From Armatimonadota bacterium (lineage in GTDB: Bacteria > Armatimonadota > Zipacnadia > Zipacnadales > UBA11051), in contig DPJP01000064.1 in NCBI GenBank assembly GCA_003542955.1, positions 4,746-12,169 of the forward strand: 7,424 bases of DNA, given 5' to 3'. The position numbers were made by a program, and so were the translations under genes. Positions within the stretch are counted from its first letter, which is position 1, and each line of letters starts with the position of its first letter. This document shows, one piece after another, positions 5,155-7,247 of the stretch. The notes under the pieces are model-generated. The model saw only the letters and a list, made by a program, of their open reading frames with translations, was not told the origin of the DNA and searched no databases.

Positions 5155-6171
5155 TCAGAGCAGCAGCACCGCCGCCACCGTGCCCACCAGGAGAAGCGTT
5201 GCCACCGCCAGGCAACCAGAGGGCATCGCCCAGCTTCGGCCCAGGCTCAGGTTCGTGAAGCTGCGGGGGCGCCCGCTCGATGGCTCAGTCAGGCACACAA
5301 ACACATCACCCGTGGCGGCGACGATGTCCACCGATCCCTTGAAATCCAGCAGCCGCACGTCATCGTCATCAAGCGTCTGGTAGCGTATCTGCCACTTCTT
5401 CTGGTCTGTCGGCCCGCGCGATGTGCGACCGTCGTCGTCACGTGCGGTCTCCCAGATGACATAGCCGTCAACCGAGCATGCCCTGCCGATGGCGCAGCCG
5501 TAGCTGCTCGCGCAGTCGAGACACCACACATTCGCCGTAGCGGCATCAATCGGCACGACGACGAGGCCCTTGCAGCCCGGCCTCGGGCACACAATCTGCC
5601 CAAACTGCGCCACCCGCGGAGTGTCGGCCCGCCGCAGGCTTCCCATCGAGCGCAGGTCGGTGCCGCAGTAGCAGCATGGTCTGCTCGTGTCACGCACGAG
5701 CGCGCCACAGCCGGGGCAGCGCGCCTGCTCGGGCGTATCACGTTGAGTGTCCCAGGGGCGATCCAGCGCGAGAGCATCAAAGACGGGGACCGTCCGGGCT
5801 CCATCGGTGGCGCTCCAGTCGGCCCGGAGTCGGCCCTCGAGCAGGTACCACAGAAGCCACGCAGGCCCGTATGGTCCCCAGCGATGCCCCGAGGCATCAC
5901 GCACTACCCAGCCGAAGTCGCCGGCTGCCTGCGCCCCCGGAGACGCTACGCCGACGCCGAGCATGGCCTCCCGAATGGCCTCCCGCACCGCGGCGAAGCG
6001 TGCGCCGTCAGATGCGCGCCAGTCGGGGTGGAGTCGGCGGGTGATGACATAGCTCAGCAGCATCGAGGGCGAGTAGGGCCCCCAGACAGTGCCGTTGTGG
6101 TCGCGAACCGTCCACTCGCTCCGACCACGGCTCTGCGCGACAGGCTGGACCCGGTTACCGGTGTGTACCAT
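5155..6171 (-). CDS. Tail-anchored membrane protein with two GYF_2-like repeats and two zinc-ribbon motifs (paralogue 2 of 2)
   Basis: 338 residues. The ATG at 6171 follows GGGGGTGAG with a 4-nt gap, and the gene starts 20 nt after the stop of its upstream paralogue. Two repeats, residues ~20-66 and ~88-134, share the pattern W-x-V-R-D-x-x-G-x-x-WGPY-x-P-x-x-L, then RL-x-x-DW-x-A-x-DGAR. This is the signature of GYF_2-like domains, usually adaptor modules in bacterial membrane proteins. A CPGC/CCYC set (C152, C155, C166, C169) forms a zinc ribbon. A second set, CPRPGC and CLDC (C195, C200, C217, C220), is ribbon-like with a wider first knuckle. Residues ~258-315 (KKWQIRYQ, RLLDFKGSVDI, NLSLGRSW) make a small beta-rich module shared with the paralogue. 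Residues 319-338 are a C-terminal hydrophobic helix; with no signal peptide, the body should face the cytoplasm. No enzymatic motif is seen and the function is unknown. The gene converges on the lyase-like gene with an 18-nt gap. Confidence 0.87.
   Translation of the reverse strand: MVHTGNRVQPVAQSRGRSEWTVRDHNGTVWGPYSPSMLLSYVITRRLHPDWRASDGARFAAVREAIREAMLGVGVASPGAQAAGDFGWVVRDASGHRWGPYGPAWLLWYLLEGRLRADWSATDGARTVPVFDALALDRPWDTQRDTPEQARCPGCGALVRDTSRPCCYCGTDLRSMGSLRRADTPRVAQFGQIVCPRPGCKGLVVVPIDAATANVWCLDCASSYGCAIGRACSVDGYVIWETARDDDGRTSRGPTDQKKWQIRYQTLDDDDVRLLDFKGSVDIVAATGDVFVCLTEPSSGRPRSFTNLSLGRSWAMPSGCLAVATLLLVGTVAAVLLL
5161..5217 (-). repeat. Direct repeat, copy 1 (3' end of the 338-aa gene)
   Basis: Bases 5161-5217 and 6201-6257 differ at only 4 of 57 positions. 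They encode the membrane helix of the two paralogues (ATLLLVGTVAAVLLL in both) plus a few residues before it. The match covers third codon positions, whereas the adjoining stretch is clearly diverged. Confidence 0.85.
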
Positions 6172-6191
6172 TCATCTCACCCCCGACATCC

Positions 6192-7247
6192 TCAGAGCAG
6201 CAGCAGCACCGCGGCCACCGTGCCCACCAGGAGCAGCGTTGCCCCGGCCAGGCAACCCGCGCTCGACCGCGGAAAGCGCCAGTTGCGGCCGAGGGTCGCG
6301 TTGCCGAGGCCCAGAATGCGCCGGGTCGTCGGCTCCAGCAAGCAGGCGAAGTAGTCATCAGTCGCGATTGCCATGTCCACGGGTCCACGGAACTCCAGCA
6401 GCGCCATCCTGTCTTTCGTGTTGACACCGTCGTAGCGGACCTGCCAGTCCTTCGACGATGTCGGCCTCGACGTCTTCTCCCAGAAGTCCTGTCCCCACAC
6501 GACCTGCCCATCGACGAAGCGCACCCGCCCCACGATGCACTCGTAGCTCGCACCGCAGTCGATGCACCACACCGGCCGTGTGGCCGGGTCAACGGGGACT
6601 GCGATCGCTCCGCGGCAGCCACGCGACGGGCAGGCGAGGAAGGCAAACTGCGGCGACGGCTCCGGTTGCGGTCCGGGGACCATCGGGAGCACGCGGATGT
6701 CGGTGCCGCAGTAGAGACACACGGCGCCGGGCCCCGCCGCCGGCGCACCGCAGGCAGGGCACCGGCCCTGTCGCGGCGGGATGACATGGTCGGTCCAGTG
6801 CGCCCGCCGGGTGAGTGCCTCGAAGACCGTGCATGCCTGCACGCCGTCGGAGGCCGGCCAGCCCGGCCTCAGCCGGCCCTCGAGCATGTACCACAGCAGC
6901 CACGCCGGCCCGTACGGCCCCCACCGGTCGCCGTTGTCATCCCAGACGAGCCAGCGCGGCCCCGGGCCCGATTCCACACCGGGGGTGCCGGCGACGACCG
7001 CCTCGATGGCGCCGCGAATCGCCCGGCGAGCCGAGACGGTGTGCGTGCCGCTGGATGCGCGCCAGCCGGGATGGAGACGTCCCTCGATGACACCCTTCTG
7101 CAGGATGGATGGGGTGTACGGCCCCCCCGTGCGCCCGTCGGCTGTCTTCACCGTCCATGACGGGCAGCGCCGCCTCCCCCACTGGTCGACCCGCTGCTCG
7201 AGAGCATCAACGCGCGAAGGTCCCTGCTGGTCGGTGTCTGATGACAT
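6192..7247 (-). CDS. Tail-anchored membrane protein with two GYF_2-like repeats and two zinc-ribbon motifs (paralogue 1 of 2)
   Basis: 351 residues, first gene of the presumed operon. The ATG at 7247 has GGTGAG 5 nt upstream, the same ribosome-binding core as its partner. Order of parts: a hydrophilic N-terminus of about 28 residues; GYF_2-like repeat 1 (~30-77), which is degenerate (GGPY instead of WGPY); repeat 2 (~98-145), containing RWGPYGPAWLLWY, identical to the partner; zinc ribbon CPAC/CLYC (C163, C166, C177, C180); a Pro-rich linker; a second Cys set, CPSRGC and CIDC (C206, C211, C228, C231); a beta-rich module (~266-325, KDWQVRYDG, ALLEFRGPVDM, NATLGRNW); and a terminal membrane helix, 332-351, ending VGTVAAVLLLL. 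Every part lines up with the 338-residue neighbour, so this is a tandem duplication. GYF_2-like domains usually bind peptides or other proteins, so a scaffold role at the inner membrane face is plausible; that is inference. No catalytic residues are recognised. Confidence 0.87.
   Translation of the reverse strand: MSSDTDQQGPSRVDALEQRVDQWGRRRCPSWTVKTADGRTGGPYTPSILQKGVIEGRLHPGWRASSGTHTVSARRAIRGAIEAVVAGTPGVESGPGPRWLVWDDNGDRWGPYGPAWLLWYMLEGRLRPGWPASDGVQACTVFEALTRRAHWTDHVIPPRQGRCPACGAPAAGPGAVCLYCGTDIRVLPMVPGPQPEPSPQFAFLACPSRGCRGAIAVPVDPATRPVWCIDCGASYECIVGRVRFVDGQVVWGQDFWEKTSRPTSSKDWQVRYDGVNTKDRMALLEFRGPVDMAIATDDYFACLLEPTTRRILGLGNATLGRNWRFPRSSAGCLAGATLLLVGTVAAVLLLL
6201..6257 (-). repeat. Direct repeat, copy 2 (3' end of the 351-aa gene)
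   Basis: Partner of 5161-5217, at an offset of 1040 nt. A second conserved block, 6874-6926 against 5831-5883 (47 of 53 identical), covers the GPYGPAWLLWY part of the second GYF_2-like repeat. Confidence 0.85.

Follow-up and report, generated by a model that had tools for sequence, protein, structure and literature searches.

A 7,424-nucleotide (nt) stretch of an Armatimonadota genome (contig DPJP01000064.1, positions 4,746 to 12,169; hereafter the window) carries two adjacent, co-directional genes for sister proteins of the same layout, each with two GYF-like repeats, two zinc ribbons, an OB-like beta module, and a predicted C-terminal membrane helix. The features, in window positions, are as follows.

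6192..7247, minus strand: gene 2 (first in order), 351 amino acids (aa); GYF-like 1, GYF-like 2, zinc ribbon 1, zinc ribbon 2, OB-like beta module, predicted C-terminal membrane helix
6987..7160, minus strand: gene 2 GYF-like repeat 1, degenerate (GGPY), with Gly in a groove position
6783..6956, minus strand: gene 2 GYF-like repeat 2 with WGPY, the best conserved
6708..6761, minus strand: gene 2 zinc ribbon 1 (Cys163, 166, 177, 180)
6645..6677, minus strand: gene 2 inter-ribbon linker PGPQPEPSPQF, not in gene 1; TGPQPEPSPQF in P0001
6555..6632, minus strand: gene 2 zinc ribbon 2 (Cys206, 211, 228, 231)
6199..6257, minus strand: gene 2 tail-anchor DNA, the copy matching 5159-5217
5155..6171, minus strand: gene 1 (second in order), 338 aa; architecture as in gene 2
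5944..6117, minus strand: gene 1 GYF-like repeat 1
5740..5913, minus strand: gene 1 GYF-like repeat 2
5665..5718, minus strand: gene 1 zinc ribbon 1 (Cys152, 155, 166, 169)
5512..5589, minus strand: gene 1 zinc ribbon 2 (Cys195, 200, 217, 220)
5227..5505, minus strand: gene 1 OB-like beta module of six predicted strands, lying after ribbon 2 and ahead of the membrane helix; limits approximate, from the model
5159..5217, minus strand: gene 1 tail-anchor DNA, 93% identical to 6199-6257

The two proteins are paralogues (48% identity across 324 aa, E 4e-99), and both open reading frames (ORFs) contain every part of the five-part architecture that an earlier, sequence-only reading of this DNA had described, including the CxxC...CxxC and Cx4C...CxxC sets and the beta module ending in NxxLGRxW. 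The 20-bp gap between the genes suggests that they are cotranscribed; a promoter scan of the window found none, and terminator-like sites were found only within gene 1. Rfam gave no match at its gathering score. A GGTGAG-type sequence precedes the ATG of both genes. Two points weigh against this gene model: a codon-usage gene caller, trained on these very genes, favors a later start for gene 1 (303 aa), and it overlooked the homologous genes of two related genomes, G003 and G001. We prefer the longer start (338 aa) because it is favored by the upstream sequence and is the same in the database protein P0002.

Gene 1 repeat 1 and gene 2 repeat 2 share 46% identity over 57 aa (E 2e-11), and in the predicted structures the repeats take on a GYF-like fold, the leading Foldseek and VIA matches including GIGYF1/2, Smy2, and CD2BP2, with modest scores. 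Structure prediction, which the sequence-only reading had proposed as a check, supports two GYF-like repeats per protein. The Pfam GYF_2 model (PF14237) gave no row for either protein at E ≤ 1 and 0 matches in the window's own genome, where the controls were silent too. The repeats are nevertheless linked to GYF_2 through L076 and L077, which are matched both by profile A8 (6.7e-8 and 2.3e-7, respectively) and by GYF_2 at or over its cut-off of 25.8 bits (30.6 and 25.9 bits). A sequence search of solved structures with A8 returned nothing convincing (best E 0.011, a steroid monooxygenase; Smy2, 0.12; GIGYF1, 0.57). In repeat 2, three groove positions are invariably Tyr, Tyr, and Trp (10/10 sequences); the GYF tripeptide is replaced by G, then R/Q, then I/L/V, and with two of the six groove positions replaced the repeat has neither the classical tripeptide nor the full aromatic groove. 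Repeat 1 of gene 2 does have GGPY in place of WGPY, as had been noted, and Gly replaces an expected groove aromatic. The repeat 1 motif is also degenerate in single-copy relatives (SGPF, QGLF, WGPL).

Behind the repeats and a Cys4 ribbon, the beta-rich module is predicted to be OB-like, and SSB, PriB, and other nucleic-acid-binding OB-folds make up most of the top VIA matches. The C-terminal membrane helix previously proposed is likewise predicted in both chains, the best 19-residue hydropathy values (2.70 and 2.53) belonging to stretches that end at each protein's last residue. No N-terminal hydrophobic segment is present in either protein. At the start of the helix, on the membrane border, one cysteine is invariant in all 19 rows of A5, which include proteins with and without GYF-like domains. 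No Pfam model reached its cut-off on either protein, nor did any NCBIfam model, and LITAF-like PF10601 gave no row for either. PADLOC anti-phage defense models gave 0 families at E ≤ 0.1, PHROG gave two matches (E 0.03-0.07), both of unknown function, and a search of the viral structure library gave nothing at E ≤ 0.001; the sequence search of solved structures with A5 reached a best E of 0.046, nothing convincing. The ribbon-OB-like-tail module, which lacks a Pfam match, also occurs without GYF domains, and the proteins described here define it.

Over 59 nt of tail-anchor DNA, genes 1 and 2 share 93% identity, compared with 58% upstream of residue 317 (542/939), and the likeness ends at the stop codons. 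The final 15 codons encode the same residues in both genes and share 13 of 15 third positions. The gene 1 tail is 19/20 like that of gene 2 and 9/21 like that of its orthologue P0002, in contrast to the rest of the protein, where, with tails excluded, the likeness to P0002 is 78% and that to gene 2 is 45%. This step in DNA identity makes it likely that the tail anchor was copied between the genes by gene conversion, most simply with a gene 2 type tail as donor and gene 1 as recipient; such a conversion may have been neutral.

To place the pair, 291 genomes of the phylum were surveyed, with the best 13 or best 7 candidates per genome scored, depending on the search. The module was found in G000 (the window's genome), G001, G003, and G025. 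Full-length genes occur in three of these, all of one genus (Candidatus Zipacnadia), and the fourth has the C-terminal module alone. Two full-length genes were found in G000 alone; G003 and G001 each carry a single one, frameshifted in G001, while G002 and G004 of the same genus carry none. The frameshift splits the G001 copy (L033 1566-2708 and 1661-1903) and is either a true break or an assembly error. Matches in G089 and G289 (E 1.8e-4 and 7.7e-4) were dropped as they overlap ORFs resembling PHP-type phosphatases, and in one phylum search six of the 10 genomes were dropped, the match lying mainly over ribbon 1. Among the database matches listed, the full-length proteins are P0001, P0002, P0009 to P0013, and P0014, the last being the frameshifted G001 reading; P0009 is nearly identical to the G003 protein, and P0003 is gene 1 read with a shortened N terminus. 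Against named genomes, query A1 found no relative and query A7 found two, JAUVVY010000018.1 (90,624 bp) and JALGTY010000562.1 (4,907 bp), the latter labeled Candidatus Zipacnadia. This class, part of Armatimonadota, was described from marine sediment (PMC10290634).

In the tree, gene 1 joins P0002 and gene 2 joins P0001, each with support 100/100; the duplication therefore predates the split from the sources of these two proteins. The G003 protein, P0009 to P0012, and P0014 form one clade, with P0013 beside it; the duplication tree is unrooted, and the fork stays open with an outgroup. No second paralogue was recognized for members of the G003/G001 clade among the matches listed, although P0013, outside it, could come from a genome of one of that clade's members. 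The single-copy gene is under mild purifying selection, with a ratio of nonsynonymous to synonymous substitution rates (dN/dS) of ~0.32 (G003 versus the first 283 codons of G001), compared to 0.08 for the neighboring sulfatase.

GYF-like domains recur elsewhere in the class, at E ≤ 1e-4 in 11 of 46 genomes, some of them partial and weak. The architectures, with membrane helices read from sequence, comprise zinc ribbon-GYF with a weak DUF4190 match, GYF with a LITAF-like ribbon, GYF-membrane helix, TPR-GYF-membrane helix, and zinc ribbon-GYF-linker-membrane helix-DUF1559. L075, L077, and L079 each run from zinc ribbon and GYF-like domain through a linker and membrane helix to an outer domain; the linker is proline-rich in L075, and the outer domain is DUF1559 in L075 and L077. 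In this uncultured bacterial class, GYF-like domains are thus combined with zinc ribbons and with membrane anchors of several kinds, and we infer that the GYF-like domain generally serves there as a plug-in module for docking, carried on membrane anchors.

It is because of this recurrence of GYF-like domains beside zinc ribbons and membrane parts that we read the pair, tentatively and with somewhat less than even confidence, as inner-membrane docking adaptors, paralogues from a tandem duplication with the predicted folds and tail helix. The membrane-tethered adaptor proposed by the sequence-only reading is reasonable; the GYF-like repeats, the ribbons, the membrane tail, and an adaptor-like design are all supported. 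The C-terminal helix would anchor each protein in the inner membrane. On the cytoplasmic face, a rigid stem would be built from the zinc ribbons and OB-like module, and a putative client protein would be held by a proline-rich peptide in the grip of the second GYF-like domain. A cytoplasmic orientation of the GYF-like domains is suggested by the lack of an N-terminal hydrophobic segment together with the Cys4 ribbons. Most likely, a gene present once in relatives was duplicated in tandem in one lineage to give the pair, and gene conversion probably carried the tail anchor across between the two copies.

An alternative to the peptide-gripping step is that the GYF-like domains could be structural or serve other protein contacts, for example, assembly with a short zinc ribbon-GYF protein of G003. 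The replaced GYF tripeptide and two groove aromatics speak for this, as does the position of the short gene (weak DUF4190 match), which in G003 follows the long gene ~98 bp downstream; the GYF domain of CD2BP2 is reported to contact a further partner away from its proline site (PMC11412891). The invariant Tyr, Tyr, and Trp of the repeat 2 groove argue the other way, and the short gene is not beside the long gene in G001 and lies on another contig in G000, where it (56% identical to that of G003) and a sulfatase stand together with no long gene between. We consider this alternative unlikely. Nucleic-acid binding at the membrane by ribbon 2 and the OB-like module, the GYF-like repeats being accessory, would suit the SSB- and PriB-type VIA matches; we regard it as very improbable.

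Two further alternatives concern the pair as such. The sequence-only reading took the retention of two copies, with one repeat degenerate, as a sign of a heteromeric complex with specialized subunits. An obligate heteromeric sensor or adaptor would fit the separate database orthologues of both paralogues (P0002 and P0001), the nearly identical tail anchors, and the linker PGPQPEPSP, present only in gene 2 of the two, which also has the more degenerate repeat 1. However, G003 and G001 hold one gene each, no second paralogue accompanies P0009 to P0012 among the matches listed, repeat 1 is degenerate in the single-copy proteins too, and P0001 and P0002 are listed on contigs that differ in length (5342 and 4129 bp) and so are not recorded side by side. 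Because the sister genomes have one copy each, with a degenerate repeat 1, the heteromer argument is weakened; it has lost its main support, and we think it unlikely. A look at gene neighborhoods, as had been proposed, found neither pairing in G003 and G001 nor a constant neighbor of the long genes across G000, G003, and G001. A sulfatase gene lies facing the single gene in both G003 and G001 (the two sulfatases 95% identical), named by its 81% identity to a partial G000 copy (347 aa) that itself matches Pfam Sulfatase. Less probable still would be a self-docking receptor-ligand complex born of the duplication, in which gene 1 keeps its GYF grooves, the gene 2 linker PGPQPEPSP serves as ligand, the gene 2 repeat 1 groove has been lost, and conversion keeps the tails identical so that both proteins enter the same membrane site.

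The window forms the end of a 12.2-kb contig (G000:C511) in a genome of 512 contigs. On one side of the pair, a convergent ORF of 1287 aa, whose C terminus is beta-propeller-like (PQQ_2, FG-GAP), stops 18 bp short of the end of gene 1; on the other, 177 bp of contig remain upstream of gene 2. Near the pair, L035 1615-5121 encodes a protein of 1168 aa that contains heparinase II C-terminal and F5/8 type C domains; together with the sulfatase beside the single-copy relatives, it hints at a possible link to polysaccharide breakdown. An 81-aa ORF at 756-1001 has an AraC-type helix-turn-helix match under the cut-off. Its last 31 residues are nearly identical to those of ORF L035 58-504, which lies where this contig begins, a signal-like N terminus preceding the common residues; partial duplication, a pseudogene, or an assembly chimera are possible explanations.

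Among known proteins, the nearest in kind are the bacterial GYF_2 (PF14237) proteins, which likewise have a GYF-like domain and in this class are often membrane proteins with zinc ribbons; the window proteins differ in having two repeats per chain and the ribbon-OB-like-tail module, without a GYF_2 match. The LITAF-like proteins L034 and L039 (the latter over the PF10601 cut-off, the former just under it) come from the same bacterial class and have a GYF-like domain beside a zinc-ribbon module, but only one such domain and no OB-like module. DUF2500 (PDB 3q6c) is a small beta domain found by Foldseek with probability 0.77, against 0.51-0.69 for 3rd4, presumably of the same family; the matches have E values of 0.4-0.5 and no sequence link to the window proteins. 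DUF2500 proteins are membrane-anchored, and we know of no ribbons or GYF domains in them. GltJ of Myxococcus xanthus (GYF domain, PDB 7z3c) differs in having one GYF domain and, to our knowledge, has no tail anchor or OB-like module. It is 674 aa long (PMC3169522). Literature searches for GltJ with GYF, zinc, or focal adhesion, for GYF domains with gliding motility, and for GYF_2 with zinc ribbon or DUF4339 found nothing, and broader searches gave no title on this layout among those listed. Peptide docking of the GYF type is known mainly from eukaryotes, whose adaptors GIGYF1/2, Smy2, and CD2BP2 have the GYF fold in common with the window repeats. If repeat 2 does bind peptides, the pair would be a bacterial membrane counterpart of these adaptors, with a directly testable ligand. 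Their signature, GPF-X4-[M/V/I]-X2-W-X3-GYF (PMC12249416), is only partly kept in the window repeats.
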